A stretch of DNA of 64,000 bases from Deltaproteobacteria bacterium (GTDB lineage Bacteria > Desulfobacterota > Binatia > HRBIN30 > JACQVA1), in contig JACOST010000014.1 of NCBI GenBank assembly GCA_016178705.1, forward strand, positions 124,001 through 188,000, written 5' to 3'. A program made the translations under genes and the position numbers. Shown here in pieces: positions 47,050 through 63,806 of this stretch (within the stretch, counting starts at the first letter, position 1; each line of letters begins with the position of its first letter). The notes under the pieces are model-generated. The model was not told the DNA's origin, did no database searches, and saw only the letters and a program-made list of their open reading frames with translations.

Positions 47050-48693
47050 ATGAGTCGAGCCCACGCCCGCCGTTGGGCCAGTGCTGTAGTCGGGCTTGGC
47101 AGCCTATTGATTGGGATCACGATATTTCGCACGAGTCTCACCGACGACGAACCCTACAGCTACGCCTTCGGTCATCGCATTGTCTTTGACGGCAACTTCG
47201 TTCGGCCGGGCCCGTTCGAAGCGTCGAAGTTACCGGTGCTGGCGCTGGCCGCGCTGCCCGAGCGGATCGGTAACTGGTTGGGGCTCGATCGCCGCCTCGC
47301 CGAGCGCGCGCTGTCGTTGACAGCGCTGCACACGCGCGAGCGCAGCTACATCGTGGACAATCTGCCGGTGTACGGCGGTCGCCTGGTTACCGCGCTCTTC
47401 TATCTCGGCATCGGTGTCCTCGTCTTCGCCTGGGGGCTCGAAGTGTACGGGCCGAGCGGCGCGCTGGGCGCGACATTGTTGATCGCGTTTCTGCCGACGT
47501 TGCTCGGACACGCCGCCGCGGCGACCACCGACGCGGCAGCCACCTTTGCTGTCCTCGCCGCGGTCTATGCGCTGGCGCGCGGACTACTCGACCCGACCAT
47601 CGAACGCATCCTGCTCGCCGGCCTCGCCTGCGGGTTCGCGCTGCTGACCAAGTACTCGGCCGCGGCGTTGGCGCCGCTGGCCCTGATCATGGTGGGGATT
47701 CGGACGCTGACAGCGGAACCGATCGAATCGAAAATCCGCGTGGCGCAGGCGGCTCTCAGCGCCGTCGTGCTGACGGGCCTGGTTGCGACGGTGGTGCTGA
47801 GTGCCGGCTTCGCGTTTCAGCATCCACTAACGAACTTAAACGAGTTGGCGTGCGCGAGCCGCGTGATGCAGGCGCTGCGCGGCTGGATCGGCGGCGTCGC
47901 GTTGCCACTGCCGTACGAGTATCTCACCGGCCTCGACCAGGTGCTGCAACAGGATCAAGATCGCACCGCCGGCGGCGCGGTGTACTTGCTCGGCACGCTC
48001 AGTGAGCACGGACTGCCGTCGTTCTATCTGATCGCGACCGCACTCAAGACACCACTGCCGTTCCTGCTACTCGTGCTCGCGCGACCGTGGCGGTGGCATC
48101 GCCGCTACACCGACCTGGTGTGGCTGGCGCCGATTGCGTGGTTCGCAATCGAGATGAGTTATGGCCTGAACTCGCAAGTGGGACTGCGCTACCTCTTGCC
48201 GGTGTTTCCGTTCACCGCGCTGTTAGCAGGCGCGGCGTGGGATCATGGGCGCCCGCGACGCTGGCGCCAGCTCGCGACCGCTCTCGGCGTGCTCGCGGTC
48301 ATTGAAGCGGCGTGGAATTGCCCGCACTATCTGTCGTACTTCAATCAACTCATTGGCTCGCGTGTGAACGCGTATCGCTACTTGGCGGATTCGAATCTCG
48401 ATTGGGACCAAGCGCGTTTCGAGTTGTGGCGGTGGGAGGAGCGTCAGCAGCCCGGAACGTACTTCCTCGACGCGCGCTACGAGCCGCGCGCCGGCCTCGT
48501 GGTGGTGCGCGCCTCCGAGCTCGTCGGCGTGTACGACGTTGCAACGTACCGTTGGTTGCGCGAGGCCAACGCCCACGGCACCGCGCACTTGATCGATTCG
48601 GTGGGCGATGCGTTTCTCGTGTTTGCAGTCGATCCGAAAGTCGTGTTGCCGGCGACAGAGGCCGGGCAGAAGAGCGGTCCGCCCGGCGAGTAG
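47050..48693 (+). CDS. GT39-like dolichyl/polyprenyl-phosphate-mannose-protein mannosyltransferase family membrane protein
   Basis: A 547-residue GT-C protein with about ten helices. The first loop has the catalytic pair in TDDEPYSYAFGHR. Other PMT/ArnT-type traits are ATLLIAFLPTLLGHAAAATTDAAATF and, near the end, NLDWDQARFELW, which is typical of bacterial GT39 proteins. It should transfer a sugar from a lipid carrier to a protein or glycan. The C-terminal ~60 residues lack helices. The frame extends beyond neither edge. It is the third GT-C-type protein in this window. Confidence 0.82.
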   Translation: MSRAHARRWASAVVGLGSLLIGITIFRTSLTDDEPYSYAFGHRIVFDGNFVRPGPFEASKLPVLALAALPERIGNWLGLDRRLAERALSLTALHTRERSYIVDNLPVYGGRLVTALFYLGIGVLVFAWGLEVYGPSGALGATLLIAFLPTLLGHAAAATTDAAATFAVLAAVYALARGLLDPTIERILLAGLACGFALLTKYSAAALAPLALIMVGIRTLTAEPIESKIRVAQAALSAVVLTGLVATVVLSAGFAFQHPLTNLNELACASRVMQALRGWIGGVALPLPYEYLTGLDQVLQQDQDRTAGGAVYLLGTLSEHGLPSFYLIATALKTPLPFLLLVLARPWRWHRRYTDLVWLAPIAWFAIEMSYGLNSQVGLRYLLPVFPFTALLAGAAWDHGRPRRWRQLATALGVLAVIEAAWNCPHYLSYFNQLIGSRVNAYRYLADSNLDWDQARFELWRWEERQQPGTYFLDARYEPRAGLVVVRASELVGVYDVATYRWLREANAHGTAHLIDSVGDAFLVFAVDPKVVLPATEAGQKSGPPGE

Positions 48694-51210: not shown

Positions 51211-51249
51211 TCACGTCGCCTACTCACGTCGTCTACTCACGTCGTCTAA
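51211..51249. repeat. Three tandem 13-base units across the cytochrome stop codon
   Basis: TCACGTCGCCTAC, TCACGTCGTCTAC and TCACGTCGTCTAA follow each other exactly. The third carries the cytochrome stop codon on the minus strand. Confidence 0.8.
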
Positions 51250-53288
51250 TGACATCCCGGCGTGTCATCGCTGTCGCGTACCCAAAAGGTGTAGGCGGCG
51301 CAGTCGTTGGGCTTTGGTGACACCGCGGCCGGAATCCCGTTCTCGACCGGTGGCAACGCGCGCAGGTAGGCGAGCAGTGCGTGTTGATCCTCGACGCTGT
51401 AGTTCGAGAACTGCGTCCACGGCATCGCTTGCCAGTGAAAGGCCGCGCCTTCGCGCCCGACTCCGCTCACCAGTGCGCGCAACAGCGCCACGTCGGACCA
51501 CTCGCCCACGCCGGTCTCGTGCGGCGTGAGGTTAGGCATCCAAATGGTGCCGAATGTTGTTGCGCTGGTCTTCTTGCCGCCGCTACCGTCGCTGCTGTGG
51601 CAATAGGCGCACGAGGCCACACCGTACAGATAGCGTCCGCGCTGGAGCACGGCGACCGTATTGCGGGAGACGCTCGCCTCGACTGGCATCGGCAGGGCCG
51701 CGTTGAAGGTGCGTATCAGCGGCTCCGCCGACAGCATATCGAGGGCGGGCAAACGTGCGATCGTGACGCCGATGCCAACCAGCGCAACCACCACCAGCGC
51801 GAAGGCAACGGCCGGCCAGCGCCGCCGTCGCCGCCGGCCGTGCTTTGGCGCTCGCACCGCGACGAACATAATGAGGCCGCCAACGAGGATGACGGCCTGC
51901 AGCCACTCCATGACTCGCAGTGGCAAATCCAGCGCGATCGTCGCTGACGGCTCCTCCTCCCCGAAATTCCCGGGCGATCGTGTAAGTCGTTCGGGGATCG
52001 CTGCCGGCCGCGGCGCGCGCAGCTTGCGCGCCACGGTTTCGAGCAATCCAAAATGTAGCGCCGCCGGTACACGATTGCGCACCGGCGGTACGGTCTTCAG
52101 GTAACTGGCGATGGCGTTAGCATCGGCATCAGTAAGCGTGCCGAAGATCTGCCACGGCATGCTCCACAAATTGAGCCGCCGCCCGCGCGTGTGCCCACTG
52201 CGGATCGCATCCGCGATCTGTTCGACCGTCCAGCTGCCGAGGCCAGTGTCGTTGTCGGAGGTGAGGTTGCCGGCGAAGAACACGCCGTGCGCATCAGCGG
52301 TGATCTTCATGCCGCCAGCGAGGTAGTGCGTGGCGAGCGTGATGCCGGCGGCGTCGACCGGACTGTGGCAGAGACCGCACATGCTGCTCTCGACGAGGTA
52401 CTCGCCGCGCACCACGGGATCCGGCGCGCGCACGCCGTCGTCGAACGTGCCGTTGGGTTCCCACGGTGGGGTGCGGGCGAGGGAGCGGACATAGGCGACG
52501 ACCGCGGCAATCTGCGCCGGCTCGGCAACCTCCGCGTAGCCCGGCATCGGGGTGCCGCCCATACCGAAGGCGATGCGCGCGTACAGTGCCTCCGCGCTGT
52601 CACCACCACTGAAGGTCCACGGCGCACTGAGATCGCGCGGCGGATCGGGCTGACCCCACGTGTCCTTCAATTCCCTCGCTGCCGCGCCGTCGCCTCGTCC
52701 TTGGATGCCGTGACACGCGCCGCAGCTGAGCGCGCCATAGAGTTCGCGTCCTTGAAGAGCTGGATCGGCCGACGCCGGCACCAACAACGGCTCAGCCGCG
52801 TGCGGCGGGTTGCCCCATGCGCGATGCGGACCGAGATCGCGCACGTATTCAGCAACGGCGGTGACGTCGTCTGCCGATAGAATGTCTTGCCACTCCGGCA
52901 TTGCGCTCCCCGGCATGCCGCGTGTGATCGCGTCGCGCACGTCGTCGAATGCCGGCGGCTCATTGCTCGCAGTCGATTTGAGTTTGAAGACGCCGCCCGT
53001 GAAATCGCGCGGGCGAGGATGAAGAGCGACGGCGGCGGGGCCGTCGCCGCGACCGTCGGGTCCGTGACACACGGCGCAGTGTTGCGCGTAAACACGTGCG
53101 CCAATCGGCGCGTCGTCTTTCAAATCACTTCCCGGCGGCCATGCGATCGCGCGCGCGTCGGCGCGATCGGGCGATTGCGATTGCGGCGGCTTTGCCGACG
53201 CGAAGCGCGCGTACCACGACCGGCCCCCATCGAGTGCGAGCAAGAGCGCGAACATGGCCAGTAGAACTCGAACCCGCGAGGTTGGCAC
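51246..53288 (-). CDS. Membrane-anchored tetra-haem cytochrome c fusion
   Basis: A 680-residue exported c-type cytochrome with four CxxCH sites: CAVCH at 71-75, CGACH at 189-193, CGLCH at 304-308 and CAYCH at 560-564. An N-terminal anchor or signal (VRVLLAMFALLLALDGG) precedes two mono-haem domains, then a third domain like those of dehydrogenase cytochrome subunits (NLTSDNDTGLGSWTVEQIADAI). A membrane helix (about 465-485) and a second helix (about 500-520) follow, then the fourth haem domain. Each haem domain has the usual distal Met region. It transfers electrons in the periplasm to or from an unknown partner. Start is GTG 53288. No dehydrogenase subunit is adjacent. Confidence 0.9.
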   Translation of the reverse strand: MPTSRVRVLLAMFALLLALDGGRSWYARFASAKPPQSQSPDRADARAIAWPPGSDLKDDAPIGARVYAQHCAVCHGPDGRGDGPAAVALHPRPRDFTGGVFKLKSTASNEPPAFDDVRDAITRGMPGSAMPEWQDILSADDVTAVAEYVRDLGPHRAWGNPPHAAEPLLVPASADPALQGRELYGALSCGACHGIQGRGDGAAARELKDTWGQPDPPRDLSAPWTFSGGDSAEALYARIAFGMGGTPMPGYAEVAEPAQIAAVVAYVRSLARTPPWEPNGTFDDGVRAPDPVVRGEYLVESSMCGLCHSPVDAAGITLATHYLAGGMKITADAHGVFFAGNLTSDNDTGLGSWTVEQIADAIRSGHTRGRRLNLWSMPWQIFGTLTDADANAIASYLKTVPPVRNRVPAALHFGLLETVARKLRAPRPAAIPERLTRSPGNFGEEEPSATIALDLPLRVMEWLQAVILVGGLIMFVAVRAPKHGRRRRRRWPAVAFALVVVALVGIGVTIARLPALDMLSAEPLIRTFNAALPMPVEASVSRNTVAVLQRGRYLYGVASCAYCHSSDGSGGKKTSATTFGTIWMPNLTPHETGVGEWSDVALLRALVSGVGREGAAFHWQAMPWTQFSNYSVEDQHALLAYLRALPPVENGIPAAVSPKPNDCAAYTFWVRDSDDTPGCH

Positions 53289-56315: not shown

Positions 56316-56427
56316 GTCATTGCGAGCCCCAAGGGCGAAGCAATCTCGATGCTCGGGGTATCGCGCTCGCGAGTAGGGCTGCCTCCACGCAACGAGATTG
56401 CTTCGTCACTCCGTTCCTCGCAATGAC
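56316..56427. repeat. REP-like palindrome with ATTGCGAG ends
   Basis: Outer arms GTCATTGCGAG (56316-56326) and CTCGCAATGAC (56417-56427) and inner arms GCGAAGCAATCTCG (56335-56348) and CGAGATTGCTTCG (56393-56405) are inverted repeats. The same arm words are known from dispersed intergenic palindromes of many bacteria, whose chance translation gives a HCEERSDEAI peptide. Confidence 0.8.
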
Positions 56428-56575: not shown

Positions 56576-58027
56576 ATGCGCCTCGCCAGGTTGTGCCGAG
56601 ATCGAGCAGGGATGTCGCGAATGATCGCGATGGCCGCGCTGCTCGCGGCGCTCGCCGCCTGCGGCGGCGCTAGCGGAGGGCACGACGCGCCGACGGCGAC
56701 CGCTAGTGCGTCTGTAACACCACCCCCGTCGCTGACTCCGATGCCGACCGCGTCACCGACCGTGACTGCCACGGTCGCGCGCTGTCCTTCGCGACAGCCA
56801 ACGGAGTGTGGAGGCGCGGTGCTCGTGTGTGACAACCGATGCTGTCGCTGCGAGCAGCCGACGCCGAGACCCAGTCTCACATCGATCGCTACACCGATCA
56901 TGACCCCACCGGTGCGGAGTGAGAGCGCGACACCGACGGCCACGACAGCAGCACCAACCGCGACGGCCGGCGATGGCTGCCCATGCGGCGCTCGGTGTTT
57001 GCTCGGTGGCACTGTTCCGGGCGAGTGCCGCCCACACCCCGTTTCACCCGGCGCCTGCGTATGCGTGGAACTGATCGCCAAGCCGACACCGACGCCGACA
57101 TGCGCACCCACAGGCACGCCCTACTCCAGCGACCACTGCCAACCGTGCCCGACGATTCGCGAGGGATGCTACGCCTCGGCGTGCGGGCAGTGCATCCCGA
57201 ACCCCACGGCAACGCCCACCCCATCACCCACCGCAACGGCGACGCTGTGCTTTGGCGGCGCGTCGGTGTCGTGCGGCACCGATCTCCGAGTGCAGCTCAG
57301 TGCCGACGACAGCCGGCTCTTTGACGACTCTGAGCTGGACTACCGAATCGTTGTCATGAACCGCAGCGCCGACCGTCTGGCCGATGTGACGATGATCGAC
57401 AAAATCGAATTCTACGAGGAAGGATCGTTCCCACGAGTCGCCGTTGAGACCAGCCAGGGAAGTTGCAACGGATACGATAGCGTGACGTGCTTACTCGGCG
57501 ACCTCGATCCGAACGCCAGCGCCACCATCGACATTCATCTGAGCGCCATTTTTCGTTACCTTCGCTACTCCTACGAGGCCGGCATCGTCGCCACCGTGAG
57601 CGCTCAAGGGATCGGGCCCACGGAGGCGAGTCTCGGCACGCATGTTCGGCCGCAACCTACGCCACCCGCGGTCTGCAACCCTCCTCATGTTGATCCCGTC
57701 ACATCGCCGACCAACGCGTTGACGCAACGGGTCGCAGGGACCATCGACGCTTCGGGCTTCGCGCCGTACTTGACCATCTGCAGTGAAGCAGGCTGCGGTC
57801 CGAGCGGTCTGCCGAGCGTTCCCCCGCAGGGGTATCGGTTTGCGGTCCAAGTCCCGCTTCAGCCAGGCGTGCTCAACCACGTGCGCGCATGCATTACAGA
57901 GGTGTTTCCGCTCGTCTGCTCTCGGTGCACGACCACTGACGTCAACGGCGCACCGCTGGACATACTTCAGACCAGCGCAACATTCACACGAACGCCCACA
58001 CCAACCCAGCCGCCAGAGGTCGCATGA
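56576..58027 (+). CDS. Cys-rich, Thr/Pro-linker lipoprotein, first of three
   Basis: A 483-residue lipoprotein (LLAALAAC, lipidated Cys29). Mature order: Thr/Pro linker; a Cys knot ending CCRCE; linker; a short module CPCGARC...CVCVEL; linker; the module CPTIREGCYASACGQC (about 176-207); linker; a DUF11-like beta-sandwich (about 225-355) with LDYRIVVMNRSADRLADVTM; and a C-terminal ~95-residue domain (VDPVTSPTN to DVNGAPLDILQ). A GGAGGAG site sets ATG 56576. Its stop overlaps the next start (ATGA). It is outer-membrane anchored and probably displayed. Function unknown; the fold names come from motif impressions. Confidence 0.8.
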   Translation: MRLARLCRDRAGMSRMIAMAALLAALAACGGASGGHDAPTATASASVTPPPSLTPMPTASPTVTATVARCPSRQPTECGGAVLVCDNRCCRCEQPTPRPSLTSIATPIMTPPVRSESATPTATTAAPTATAGDGCPCGARCLLGGTVPGECRPHPVSPGACVCVELIAKPTPTPTCAPTGTPYSSDHCQPCPTIREGCYASACGQCIPNPTATPTPSPTATATLCFGGASVSCGTDLRVQLSADDSRLFDDSELDYRIVVMNRSADRLADVTMIDKIEFYEEGSFPRVAVETSQGSCNGYDSVTCLLGDLDPNASATIDIHLSAIFRYLRYSYEAGIVATVSAQGIGPTEASLGTHVRPQPTPPAVCNPPHVDPVTSPTNALTQRVAGTIDASGFAPYLTICSEAGCGPSGLPSVPPQGYRFAVQVPLQPGVLNHVRACITEVFPLVCSRCTTTDVNGAPLDILQTSATFTRTPTPTQPPEVA

Positions 58028-61000
58028 GAGTCTTGCAAGTTTTCCGGCTTCCGCGCAGGAGGCACTTGATTGCGAGCGCACTATCCGTGCTCCTCATCGG
58101 CTGCGGCGGCAGTAGCGAAGGCGCTGCGCATCCAACCGCGAGCCCGACGCTCGTCCCAACCGCCACCAAAGAACTGACCGCAACACCAACGCCCCCGCCG
58201 ACGCAGTCACCGACCGCGAGCGGCACACCGACAGCTTCGGTTACGTCGACGGCCACCGTTACGCCGACACCCACGTCCTCGCAGACACCGACCCTCACCT
58301 CGTGCGGAGTGGCGGCGCCTCCGCTCGTTGATCCAGTGATCTCCCCCACCGATCTTCTGCAGCAGACCATCACTGGATTCGCGCACTTAACCGGAGCCCG
58401 ATCCATCATCATTTCGAGTGAGGGTAGGTGCCAGGTCGACCGCGAGTTCAACCTCCGCTTCAGCGCCACGTGCACGCTGCTGCCGAATCAGATCAACCAC
58501 GTGGAAGTGTGCTTGTACAACTCCTGCGGCGCCGTCCAGAAAGCGTGTACCCGACGCGATGTGAACGGGGCTCCTCTGGAAATCGCTCAGGTTGCCAGCT
58601 TGCCAACGTTGACCCCGACTCCGTCGCCCACAACTCCGGCCGTGACGCCCACGAGCACTCCGACCCCTTCGCCGACTTGCGGCCAAACGGTCTTCCAGTT
58701 CTGTCCCGACGGAGTGACGACGTGCCCGCGCAACGGCGACCTCTGCTGCGTCTGTGAGGCGACTCGTACACCCACGCCGACGCCAACGATCACAAGTACG
58801 AGCACGCCGGATTGTGGAGCAATTGCACCGCGCCTCGATCCGCTTCCAGTCTCGACGGACGAGTTGAAGATCCACGTCACCGGCACCTACACCGCGTTCG
58901 CACCGGATACGTCGATCAGCGTGTGCAGCGAAGCCGCTTGCTTCTACCAAGCTTATGTCTCCGACCAACCGAGTTCCTACCATCAACTCGCCTTCGATCT
59001 CACGCTGAAGCCCAACGGCGTGAACCACATCACCGCCTGCGGCCGTTCGGGCTTCTGCAGGAACCGCGAGTGCAAGCCGCCGATCGAGATCCTCCAAACG
59101 TGCGTAGAGACCGTCCACCCTGACTGCCTCGGTGCGACGAGCTGCGGGCCATGTTGCCTATGTGGGGCGACAAACACCCGGACCCCCACGCCAACTGCAA
59201 CGGCGCCGACGCCGACCATCACACCGACAGCGCCGACACCGACGATCACTCGGACACCACTCGTCGGTCGCTTTGCGTACATCACCAACTACGGTGGTGA
59301 CTCTGTCACCGTGATCGATACGGCGACCAACACGATCGTCACCGACGTCACGGTCGGCCGCGCACCGTTCCGCGTAGCGACGACGCCCGACGGGCGCTTT
59401 GCCTTGGTGACGCGGCCACTCGACGATCTGGTCACCATCATCGCGACGCTCAACAACTCAGTGGTCGCGAATGTCCGCGTGTTCCGACCGAGCGGTATCG
59501 GTATCAGCCCCGACGGCGCCACCGCATACGTCAGCGAATCGATCTTCGGAACGGTCGCAGCCATCAATGTGCAGGCCGGAATAGTGCAGGCGGCCGTCTG
59601 TGTTGGGGGACTACCGGATGACGTCGCCGTGGCACCTGACGGAGACATCCTGTACGTGACCGACCGCGAGACACCAACGCTTCACATCGTCGATCTCGAC
59701 GAGCGGCTCACGCTGCAACGCTCGCTGCCAGTGTCAGCACGAACGGGCGCGGTGGCCGTGGCACCCGACGGCGCAACCGCTTACGTCGGCAGTACCTCTG
59801 CTCAACTCGGCAGCCTCTGGTCATTCGACACCGCCGCGTTGATGTTTGTCGATCACGTCGACTTCGGCACGGCGCAGCCCGCGGCCGTGCGCGTCACGGC
59901 CGACGGCACGGCCGTCTTTGTCACCGATGTTCCGTCCGGGTCCGTCTCGGTCGTCGAGCCGGACACCCTGCACTTGAAAGAATCCATCGCGGCGGGCGAC
60001 GCCCTACGTGGCATCGCGTTCACACCCGACACGGCGCTGGCGTACGTGGCCGATCAAGCGGCGAGCACAGTGATCGTGCTCGACACCGTGCACGGAACCG
60101 TGGCGTCGACCATCGAAGGGCTGAGCAATCCCGCCGACGTGGCCATTGCGGATCTCCGCTCGCCCACCCCGTGCGACGGCGGTGCCGTTTGCACCCCGAG
60201 GCCCACCTTCACCCACCGGCCGACGCGCACACGTACCCCGACGCTCACACCGACGCTGACGCTGACACCAACCGATACACCGACGCCGACACAAACACTG
60301 ACCCCCTGCTTCGCGAACCAGGGCACGCCGTGCACACCGCTACCGACGGCGACACCAACGCGAAGCGTTACAGCAACGGCCGCCCTCAACGCCACCTCAA
60401 CCATAACAGCGACCCGTACTCCGACACTCTGCCCGCCCGATCAATTCCGTGGATGCGCGTGCAGTGGCCCTCCTGCGTGCGCGTGTCTGGTCTGCCCGCC
60501 CTGTCCGCCCGGCTACTTTCTCAGCGCAACGCCGGGAAAGTGCGCGTGCGGCTTCGGACCCAGCCCAACGCCGACGCAAACGCACCCCGGAAGCGTCACG
60601 CGCGCCCCGGTCGCGACGTTTACGCCCACAATCACTCCGATGACGCCGACCGTGTCGCCGACCTGCAGCCAAACCGTTTTTCAATTCTGTCCCGACGGCG
60701 TGACGACGTGCTCGCGCATCGGCAACGCCTGCTGCATCTGTGAGGCGACGAACACTCCGAGTGCGACGCCGACTCCGACGTCAACCTGCGCGCCGACCGG
60801 CACGCCGTATCACAGCGATGACTGCCGTCCGTGCCCGACAATTCGCGAGGGATGCTACGCCTCCGGGTGCGGACAGTGTATCCAGAACCCCACGGCAACT
60901 CCGACACCGACGGTTCCGACACCGACAGCCACGCCTACCGCCACGCACACACCGGCGTTGTGCGTGACGGGTCTGAACCCTGAGATGGCTTCTGTTCCAG

Positions 61001-62799
61001 GCACAGGCGGATCTGCGTGTACCAATGTCATCGCCCCCGCGGATTGCTGTTGGGAGGCTCGGGTTCGGTATGGATACGTCTTGGAACAAGGCTGCGGCAA
61101 TGGCGTCGTATGCTACTCGCTCGGGTTCAACGACGGACAGTCTTTTCGCCTCTACATCGATGTGGGCAGCCGGACGTTCGTGGTCTCTCAAAGCATGCCG
61201 TCTTCGCCTACCACGAGCAGTACCGCCACGGTGACCGTGACGCCGACGGCGACACGCACCCTCAAGCCGACTCAGACGCCGACAACGACGCCCACGATCA
61301 CGCACACACGCAAGCCGACCGCGACATCGACTCCGTCGTTCACGCGCCGGCCGACACAAACGCCGACGCCGTCGTCGACTCCGCGACCGACACGATCGCC
61401 TACGGCCAGCGTCACTCCGACACCGAGCAAGACGCCACGACCGTCGATCACTCCAACGCCGACGCCCACGCAGACCCCGCTCATCGGCCGTTTCGCCTAC
61501 GTTACCAACTACGGTGGCGACTCGGTGTCGGTCATCGACTTGGCGACCAACGCGATTGTCCGCAACACCGTCGTCGGCCGCGCGCCGTTCCACATCGCGA
61601 TTACACCAGATGGGCGCTTTGCCTACGTGACGCGTCCGCTCGATGATCTGGTGTCGGTCATCGATACAGCCAGTAACAGCGTGATTCGCGACATTCGCGT
61701 CGACCGGTGGCCGGCCGGGATTGCGATCAGCCCCGACGCGCGAACCGTCTACGTCGCCAGCGAGGTCGCCGGGGTCGTCGATGTGATTGACGTCGGAAGC
61801 AATGCTATTCGCGGCATCGTCGCCGTGGGCGGTGAACCGAGTAGTTTGGCGGTCGCACCGGGCGGCGCATCTGTGTACGTGACGAACTCGCGATCCACCT
61901 GCTTGTCCGTGGTGGACGTTGAAACCCTCGGGCGGGCCGACCACTCGATCGGTTTACCCAGTGGTGTTGTGGCCGCGTCACCGGATGGCGCGCGGCTCTA
62001 TGTCAGCACCCACCACCCGTTCGCCGATGCCTTGTCGTTTGTCGACCCGACCAGCTTCGCTATCGGCTCGAAGATCGACTTCGGCGTCGCGTTGCCACAG
62101 GGTGTCGCGGTCAGTGCAAACAGTGCACGGGTGTACGTGACGGACGCCCCGGTTGGATTTGTCTCGATCATTGATCCGTCGGCCGGGTCCGTCATCGGCT
62201 CCGTTGGTGTGGGAATCTATCCGCGCGGGATCGCCCTCACATCGGATGGGACGCTGGCATACGTGGCGAACGAGGCGTCGCGCTCCGTGTCCGTCATCGA
62301 TACGGAGACGATCACAGTCGCGCGCACGATTTCGTTTCCAAACTATCCCGTCGATGTCGCGATTGCCGATCTCCGCGCGCGAACATGCGTTGGCGACGCA
62401 CCCTGTACGGCGACGCCGACGTTCACCACGCGGCCGACACACTCCGCAACACCAACGCCAACGGTGACACTGGGAGTCCCGTGTTTTGGCGGCATCACTT
62501 GCACGCCGATGGGTACGTCAACGAGGACACCCACCGCCACGGTGACGCACACCCGTACGCCGTGCCCGGCTGGGTCCTTCGCCAGCTGTACGTATCCCAG
62601 CAGCAGCCCCGACTGCGGGGCGGATACCCGATGCGAATGCATCGCGTGCCCGCAGTGCCCGCCAAATCAGGTCCGACCTTTCGGGCTCGGCGACTGTCTC
62701 TGCATCCGCGAGCCCACTCCGACTGTACAGCCGCCCGCCACGCCACGGGCTACTCCCACACCAACCAAGATATCGCTCGCGTCAATGGGAGTTGCATGA
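58024..62799 (+). CDS. Giant modular lipoprotein with two YVTN beta-propellers, second of three
   Basis: A 1591-residue lipoprotein (SVLLIGC, Cys27). Order: Thr/Pro linker; domain ending VNGAPLEIAQ (~98-195); FCPDGVTTC...CCVCEAT module; second related domain (~260-355); Cys module ending CCLCGAT; first YVTN propeller (~413-713; GRFAYITNYGGDSVTVID); Cys module (CACLVCPPCPPG); second CC.CEAT module; CPTIREGCYASGCGQC; a BACON-like domain (~979-1057); second propeller (~1152-1452); a final Cys module (CECIACPQCPPN). Long TPTPT linkers separate all parts. The two halves look like an internal duplication. Overlaps both neighbours by 4 bases. Likely a surface or periplasmic binding scaffold. Confidence 0.82.
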   Translation: MRVLQVFRLPRRRHLIASALSVLLIGCGGSSEGAAHPTASPTLVPTATKELTATPTPPPTQSPTASGTPTASVTSTATVTPTPTSSQTPTLTSCGVAAPPLVDPVISPTDLLQQTITGFAHLTGARSIIISSEGRCQVDREFNLRFSATCTLLPNQINHVEVCLYNSCGAVQKACTRRDVNGAPLEIAQVASLPTLTPTPSPTTPAVTPTSTPTPSPTCGQTVFQFCPDGVTTCPRNGDLCCVCEATRTPTPTPTITSTSTPDCGAIAPRLDPLPVSTDELKIHVTGTYTAFAPDTSISVCSEAACFYQAYVSDQPSSYHQLAFDLTLKPNGVNHITACGRSGFCRNRECKPPIEILQTCVETVHPDCLGATSCGPCCLCGATNTRTPTPTATAPTPTITPTAPTPTITRTPLVGRFAYITNYGGDSVTVIDTATNTIVTDVTVGRAPFRVATTPDGRFALVTRPLDDLVTIIATLNNSVVANVRVFRPSGIGISPDGATAYVSESIFGTVAAINVQAGIVQAAVCVGGLPDDVAVAPDGDILYVTDRETPTLHIVDLDERLTLQRSLPVSARTGAVAVAPDGATAYVGSTSAQLGSLWSFDTAALMFVDHVDFGTAQPAAVRVTADGTAVFVTDVPSGSVSVVEPDTLHLKESIAAGDALRGIAFTPDTALAYVADQAASTVIVLDTVHGTVASTIEGLSNPADVAIADLRSPTPCDGGAVCTPRPTFTHRPTRTRTPTLTPTLTLTPTDTPTPTQTLTPCFANQGTPCTPLPTATPTRSVTATAALNATSTITATRTPTLCPPDQFRGCACSGPPACACLVCPPCPPGYFLSATPGKCACGFGPSPTPTQTHPGSVTRAPVATFTPTITPMTPTVSPTCSQTVFQFCPDGVTTCSRIGNACCICEATNTPSATPTPTSTCAPTGTPYHSDDCRPCPTIREGCYASGCGQCIQNPTATPTPTVPTPTATPTATHTPALCVTGLNPEMASVPGTGGSACTNVIAPADCCWEARVRYGYVLEQGCGNGVVCYSLGFNDGQSFRLYIDVGSRTFVVSQSMPSSPTTSSTATVTVTPTATRTLKPTQTPTTTPTITHTRKPTATSTPSFTRRPTQTPTPSSTPRPTRSPTASVTPTPSKTPRPSITPTPTPTQTPLIGRFAYVTNYGGDSVSVIDLATNAIVRNTVVGRAPFHIAITPDGRFAYVTRPLDDLVSVIDTASNSVIRDIRVDRWPAGIAISPDARTVYVASEVAGVVDVIDVGSNAIRGIVAVGGEPSSLAVAPGGASVYVTNSRSTCLSVVDVETLGRADHSIGLPSGVVAASPDGARLYVSTHHPFADALSFVDPTSFAIGSKIDFGVALPQGVAVSANSARVYVTDAPVGFVSIIDPSAGSVIGSVGVGIYPRGIALTSDGTLAYVANEASRSVSVIDTETITVARTISFPNYPVDVAIADLRARTCVGDAPCTATPTFTTRPTHSATPTPTVTLGVPCFGGITCTPMGTSTRTPTATVTHTRTPCPAGSFASCTYPSSSPDCGADTRCECIACPQCPPNQVRPFGLGDCLCIREPTPTVQPPATPRATPTPTKISLASMGVA

Positions 62800-63806
62800 C
62801 GGCTTCGTGGATTTCCCGAAGCCGGTTGCTGCGCTCGCGGCATGTGCTTGCGACCGCACTATTCGCGCTCCTCGTCGGTTGCGGCGGCAGTGGCAGCGGT
62901 GCGCTGCCGACGCCCTCGCCGACGTTACTGCCGACCGCGTCGCCAACGATGAGCGCGCCGACCCCGACCGTATCCGCAACGCCGAGCAACACCGCAGCGC
63001 CCACGGACTCGCCGACTCCAACGCCCACCTGCGCTCCGACCGGCACGCCGTATCACAGCGATGACTGCCAATCGTGTCCTACAATTCGTGAAGGCTGCTA
63101 CGCCTCGGCGTGCGGCCAATGTATCCCGAACCCGACGTTGACACCGACACCGAAGGGTCCGACGCCTTCACCTACCTGCGCAGGGATCATCTTCGCGTTC
63201 TGCCCGGGCGATACCTGCGGCCCGTGCTGCATGTGCGAAGCGACCACTACGCCGACGCCTCCGGGCAAAGTGACCAACACGCCGGGTGCCACCCCGCTGC
63301 GAACGCCGGTGTGCGCTGGACCGTGCCCCGACCTCGTGGCGAGCCAAGTTGGCTTGTTCTCCTTTTACGGTTGCATCGTTTCGTTCAGTGATTGGTTGGC
63401 TCTTCCGCGCGATGTGCGGGTGTGCGTCACCAATTTTGGCAATGCCGCGGCCGGGTCGTTCCATGTTTCGGTCGGACCTCCGGTCTCGACCGTCTTGACG
63501 GTGAACGGGCTCGCGGCCGGCGGTTCCTCATGCATGACGTTCCCGCACGGAAGCGAATTTCCCAGGCTCGACGTGTTCGCCGATTCCCTCAACGAAGTCG
63601 ACGAGAGCGACGAGTCGAACAACAAGGCCGCCTACGCCCCGACCGGAACGCCGCCGACTATATGTACCCCGACGCCCACCCCTCCGGCGTCGCCTCCAAC
63701 CGTCACGGCGACGGCGACTCGATCAGGGGGCACGCCCACCTCCACACCAACGATCACGCCGACTCCGACGAAGACACCCTCGCTGATTCCCGCGGCCTTC
63801 ATCTGA
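62796..63806 (+). CDS. Cys-rich, Thr/Pro-linker lipoprotein with CARDB domain, third of three
   Basis: A 336-residue lipoprotein (ALFALLVGC, Cys29). Order: Thr/Pro linker; the module CPTIREGCYASACGQC (about 79-110); linker; a short FAFCPGDTC...CCMCEAT module; linker; then a CARDB-type beta-sandwich (about 165-290) with CVTNFGNAAAGSFHVSV and the end NEVDESDESNNKAAY, the classic CARDB close. A final Thr/Pro tail follows. ATG 62796 overlaps the previous stop (ATGA). It shares modules with the two upstream proteins. It is the last gene before the double hairpin. Confidence 0.8.
   Translation: MTASWISRSRLLRSRHVLATALFALLVGCGGSGSGALPTPSPTLLPTASPTMSAPTPTVSATPSNTAAPTDSPTPTPTCAPTGTPYHSDDCQSCPTIREGCYASACGQCIPNPTLTPTPKGPTPSPTCAGIIFAFCPGDTCGPCCMCEATTTPTPPGKVTNTPGATPLRTPVCAGPCPDLVASQVGLFSFYGCIVSFSDWLALPRDVRVCVTNFGNAAAGSFHVSVGPPVSTVLTVNGLAAGGSSCMTFPHGSEFPRLDVFADSLNEVDESDESNNKAAYAPTGTPPTICTPTPTPPASPPTVTATATRSGGTPTSTPTITPTPTKTPSLIPAAFI

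Follow-up and report, generated by a model that had tools for sequence, protein, structure and literature searches.

1L0Q is an extracellular protein, presumably from Methanosarcina mazei, that contains seven-bladed YVTN propellers of the kind present in the second protein of the three-gene locus described here. The propeller is the only element in common; the proteins of the trio additionally have Cys modules, Thr/Pro stalks and a predicted lipid anchor. Within the same order, modular secreted proteins (L003, L031, L032, L042 and L043) carry Thr/Pro linkers and the same Cys module as the trio. In contrast to the trio, these proteins hold the module in an unsplit form (7+5 or 5+5 Cys), are not part of a lipobox trio, and usually also contain an EF-hand/dockerin-like repeat pair or other domains. 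A further likeness concerns Big_6 (PF17936)/Glucodextran_B (PF09136) domains; domain D of the trio shows profile similarity to such a domain encoded in genome G088 (hhalign probability 89%), from which it differs in having additional Cys and in lying below Pfam detection. A literature search found no description of the domain combination of the trio.

Within the window, the whole 64,000-nucleotide stretch of DNA that was analysed, three genes on the + strand encode lipoproteins of 483, 1591 and 336 aa. Gene 1 is located at 56576..58027 (lipobox LAAC, Cys29), gene 2 at 58024..62799 (LIGC, Cys27), and gene 3 at 62796..63806 (LVGC, Cys29). All three proteins show the N-terminal signal and the lipobox ending in Cys by which bacterial lipoproteins are recognised, and Gly-Gly directly follows the lipobox Cys in each of them. 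Genes 1 and 2, and likewise genes 2 and 3, are joined by 4-base ATGA overlaps at 58024 and 62796, respectively. A Shine-Dalgarno-like GGAGGAGAG is situated upstream of the gene 1 ATG, purine-rich stretches lie ahead of the starts of genes 2 and 3, and the proteins encoded by these two genes share 62% identity in their signal regions. These open reading frames are real genes, and the three ATGA-linked lipobox proteins reported in the first-pass annotation were recovered with their exact coordinates, overlaps and lipoboxes. The three genes would be co-transcribed as one unit; a search for a promoter-like site for the trio found none. Just 5' of gene 1, a REP/MITE-like inverted repeat (56336-56427) contains the 34-mer GAGATTGCTTCGTCACTCCGTTCCTCGCAATGAC, which has 11 copies in the genome at ≤3 mismatches and none in the reversed control.

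The modules, several of which are shared among the proteins, are arranged differently in each of them. Protein 1 is composed, in order, of Cys module B with 6 Cys (56783..56857), an unclassified module with 6 Cys (56978..57064), Cys module A with 6 Cys (57101..57208), a DUF11 domain (57281..57565) and the Ig-like domain D with 6 Cys (57674..57970). Protein 2 begins with D (58303..58590), B (58678..58764), a second D (58813..59097) and a diverged B (59104..59172), which are followed by propeller 1 (59257..60171), Cys module C with 9 Cys (60430..60549), a further B (60664..60750), A (60787..60894), the beta-rich domain E with 6 Cys (60961..61194), a long linker, propeller 2 (61480..62394) and a second copy of C (62563..62703). 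Protein 3 comprises A (63030..63137), B (63177..63245), a CARDB domain (63414..63629) and a linker tail.

The propellers noticed in the first-pass annotation are confirmed as two seven-bladed beta-propellers of YVTN type, both in protein 2. TIGR02276 (YVTN) matches this protein in 10 stretches (E 1.6e-66), and in each propeller the blade motif recurs every ~42 aa, with six of the seven blades caught by the motif search. Propeller 1 is identified by profile, PDB and blade-motif matches, and propeller 2 by profile and blade-motif matches. Among the solved structures in the PDB, propeller 1 best matches 1L0Q, a YVTN surface-layer protein (E 4.4e-35), and next hydrazine synthase beta. Many other YVTN propellers are encoded in this genome (G000), for example at C28:119625-121376, C15:150145-151143 and C31:187553-188533, and several of them adjoin Thr/Pro linkers (e.g., L007).

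The CARDB-like domain of the same annotation proved to be CARDB, with a Pfam match in protein 3 above the gathering score (E 9e-8; 32.7 bits vs 22.7). The annotation missed the DUF11 domain of protein 1 (Pfam E 1.3e-6; 29.2 bits vs a gathering score of 24.6) and domain D, which is present three times. The AlphaFold model of D is all-beta (pLDDT 71.5) with an immunoglobulin-type sandwich, and its best Foldseek matches are immunoglobulin folds, weak and unspecific (best E 0.024) and informative at the level of the fold only. Judged by this model, D is a predicted Cys-decorated Ig-like domain that was previously unrecognised. Domain E (residues 980-1057 of protein 2) gave a poor model with beta-strands only (pLDDT 54) and is probably all-beta. 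Its earlier designation as BACON-like was not confirmed: the domain has no Pfam match even at E≤10, and the model is too weak for a structure search. Neither dockerin nor cohesin was detected by Pfam in the three proteins, EF-hand-like repeats being confined to the relatives.

The Cys modules show a regular composition. The A and B halves are separated by linkers in the trio, and 6 Cys are present in 3/3 copies of A and 5/5 copies of B. This genome encodes a fused A+B module elsewhere (locus L003), and fused modules are also present in G003, G008, G009 and G013, with 7+5 Cys in four cases and 5+5 in that of G008, where the Cys at positions 16 and 28 are both absent. Relative to the fused form, A of the trio is without Cys 9 and B has one extra Cys. 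The number of Cys in A/B-type modules, when whole, is always even and is therefore read as reflecting paired disulfides, although this parity is drawn from related copies and gives small independent support. The pattern suggests that A and B would be disulfide-paired, with a bridge between the halves in the fused form. Module C, with 9 Cys, is the exception and would need a partner outside the module. In total, 28, 70 and 18 Cys follow the lipid Cys in proteins 1, 2 and 3, respectively. Protein 3 retains the A-linker-B order, like the unsplit module of the relatives, as if a linker had been inserted into the fused module past the shared “NPT”.

No match of the Cys modules to characterised families was found in Pfam or the PDB. 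EPC3, a PDB match with E 0.015, was rejected because the alignment is without Cys register. The Cys module forms a small, hitherto undescribed family. We tentatively go further, at somewhat less than even confidence, and propose a new disulfide-domain family of one order, cut here by a Thr/Pro linker and re-paired, in which loss of the bridging Cys from A and gain of one in B would have turned a 12-Cys domain into a pair of 6-Cys domains that fold independently. That the change ran from fused to split is suggested by the wider occurrence of the fused form.

Other Cys-rich proteins of the order are built in a similar manner. L003 (G000:C28:716507-719647), a protein of secreted type with 817 aa, begins with EF-hand/dockerin-like repeats and also contains the fused A+B module, Thr/Pro linkers and additional Cys-rich stretches; it has no Pfam match at E 0.01. 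L042 (G003) and L041/L032 (G009) contain arrays of additional short Cys modules with the pattern C-x4-C...C-P-x-C-V, which are set between Thr/Pro linkers and adjoin an EF-hand-like pair; L041 has no Pfam match. A possible VWC/antistasin-like resemblance of the further modules of L032 and L042 was set aside; Pfam gave no match.

Thr/Pro linkers constitute 29-43% of each trio protein by a simple window rule and contain short tandem repeats. As noted in the first-pass annotation, Cys-rich modules alternate with long TPTPT linkers in all three proteins. ACNCCNACNCCNAC, which encodes Thr-Pro-Thr-Pro-Thr, occurs 16 times in the window against 0.14 expected, which excludes chance, and all 16 copies fall within the trio on the coding strand. 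The longest linker (61195..61494, gene 2) extends over ~100 aa by the window rule, and its final residues overlap the start of propeller 2. Strict TPTPTPT-coding runs, of which this genome has 35, are found in 15/15 genomes of the order. Several further families of the class have them too, and in others they are rare. A PMT-type glycosyltransferase gene lies on the + strand ~8 kb upstream of the trio (47050-48690); as a speculation, its product is a candidate for Thr glycosylation of the linkers.

The lipid anchor, the stalk-like linkers, the disulfide modules and the binding-type domains together suggest envelope proteins with an external binding partner, and surface stalks carrying putative binding heads are the most likely function. 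With slightly better than even confidence, we favour a single transcription unit that encodes paralogous, lipid-anchored envelope proteins, whose stalks with binding heads have grown by module duplication and shuffling and whose 12-Cys module has been split. Each protein would be exported and receive its lipid on the lipobox Cys, and since position +2 is Gly and not Asp, it would probably be routed to the outer membrane. The Thr/Pro linkers may act as extended stalks, perhaps O-glycosylated, that present propeller or beta-sandwich heads along with small Cys modules stabilised by disulfides, and these may bind other proteins, glycans or cells. The set would have been enlarged through duplication and through module shuffling at the Thr/Pro linkers. 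An ancestral 12-Cys module, with at least one disulfide between its halves, would have been divided by a linker, leaving two 6-Cys modules independent of each other, the split coming with one Cys lost in A and one gained in B. Against this reading, YVTN propellers are also known from redox proteins and from proteins of the periplasm.

The trio is absent from the other genomes of its class (148 genomes searched). A search of related lineages for the trio, which the first-pass annotation had itself named as a check, thus found no related genome that carries it. In G001, the closest genome (same family), the GDPD gene that lies upstream of the trio here is present at 66% identity without the trio beside it. 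Relatives of protein 1 beyond single modules or linkers were not found in 145 related genomes, and protein 3 has short partial matches only, to the lipobox plus linker or to CARDB. Module A occurs in 5/15 genomes of the order, with one weak match (E 0.006) elsewhere in the class; among 395 genomes drawn from the phylum, a draw that contained few of the order, no further genome was found. Domain D is present in 2/15 genomes of the order, with weak matches in two further members of the class. As the parts are lineage-wide and the trio is absent from relatives, the trio is read as having been assembled locally from components common to the lineage. Its presence in one genome of 148 gives no ground for arguing a conserved joint function, and the trio is accordingly less important as a defined three-protein system. 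Of the one surface-displayed binding or matrix system proposed earlier, lipid-anchored, extracytoplasmic binding proteins remain the best reading of the anatomy (lipoboxes, Cys modules, and YVTN, CARDB, DUF11 and Ig-like domains), with surface exposure and binding as its putative parts; the conserved trio does not stand.

The main rival to a binding function is a structural role, in which the proteins would make up a lipid-anchored, glycosylated coat or S-layer-like layer without a specific ligand and would be the repeat-rich proteins typical of the lineage. The proximity of propeller 1 to a surface-layer protein in the PDB and the large share of linkers in each protein are in keeping with such a coat, as are like linkers at ~30 sites within this genome and in every genome of the order. 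The domain types are nevertheless highly diverse for a coat, an array-forming repeat is absent, and a main coat protein should be conserved, whereas the trio is not. We consider this role unlikely, though worth weighing.

A redox or metal-handling role, in which propellers and Cys modules of envelope proteins would hold a metal or cofactor, is improbable. The propellers score against enzyme models for cytochrome d1, hydrazine synthase beta and a nitrous-oxide reductase of lactonase type. In addition, the - strand encodes, ~3 kb upstream (51246-53288), a protein with several cytochrome c domains (Cytochrom_C, three stretches). The NCBIfam enzyme-model scores are however far under the curated cut-offs, as expected of general YVTN repeats, no CxxCH haem motif is present in any of the three proteins, and the Cys numbers of modules A and B are even throughout.

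Comparison of the module copies reveals the selection acting on them. The three A copies share 86-92% protein identity and differ at 42-64% of synonymous vs 5-8% of non-synonymous sites, which corresponds to dN/dS of 0.03-0.13 at dS of 0.6-1.4; dN/dS between propellers 1 and 2 is 0.35. These Nei-Gojobori figures are rough owing to biased codon usage and short modules, yet the contrast is strong. The low dN/dS at such dS indicates that the A copies are old and conserved, and the modules, as judged from these substitution patterns, are under strong purifying selection. The first-pass annotation had raised a chance accretion of repeats as the alternative; in this view, slippage-prone Thr/Pro repeats and fragments of modules would have come together by chance and have no present function. 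It could draw on relatives without the trio and on the tandem repeats within the linkers, but is unsupported because of the dN/dS values of A copies and propellers, and is very improbable in view also of 7.2 kb of overlapping open frames with intact signals and of the conserved Cys positions.

The trio of putative binding stalks is thus a real, selected, yet genome-specific operon of familiar style; what is new in it is the Cys module, which is specific to the order and has apparently been split here. The locus indicates how an uncultured lineage builds envelope proteins through the exchange of disulfide modules along repetitive linkers, and it offers a natural case in which a domain has apparently been split and its cysteine pairing rebalanced.
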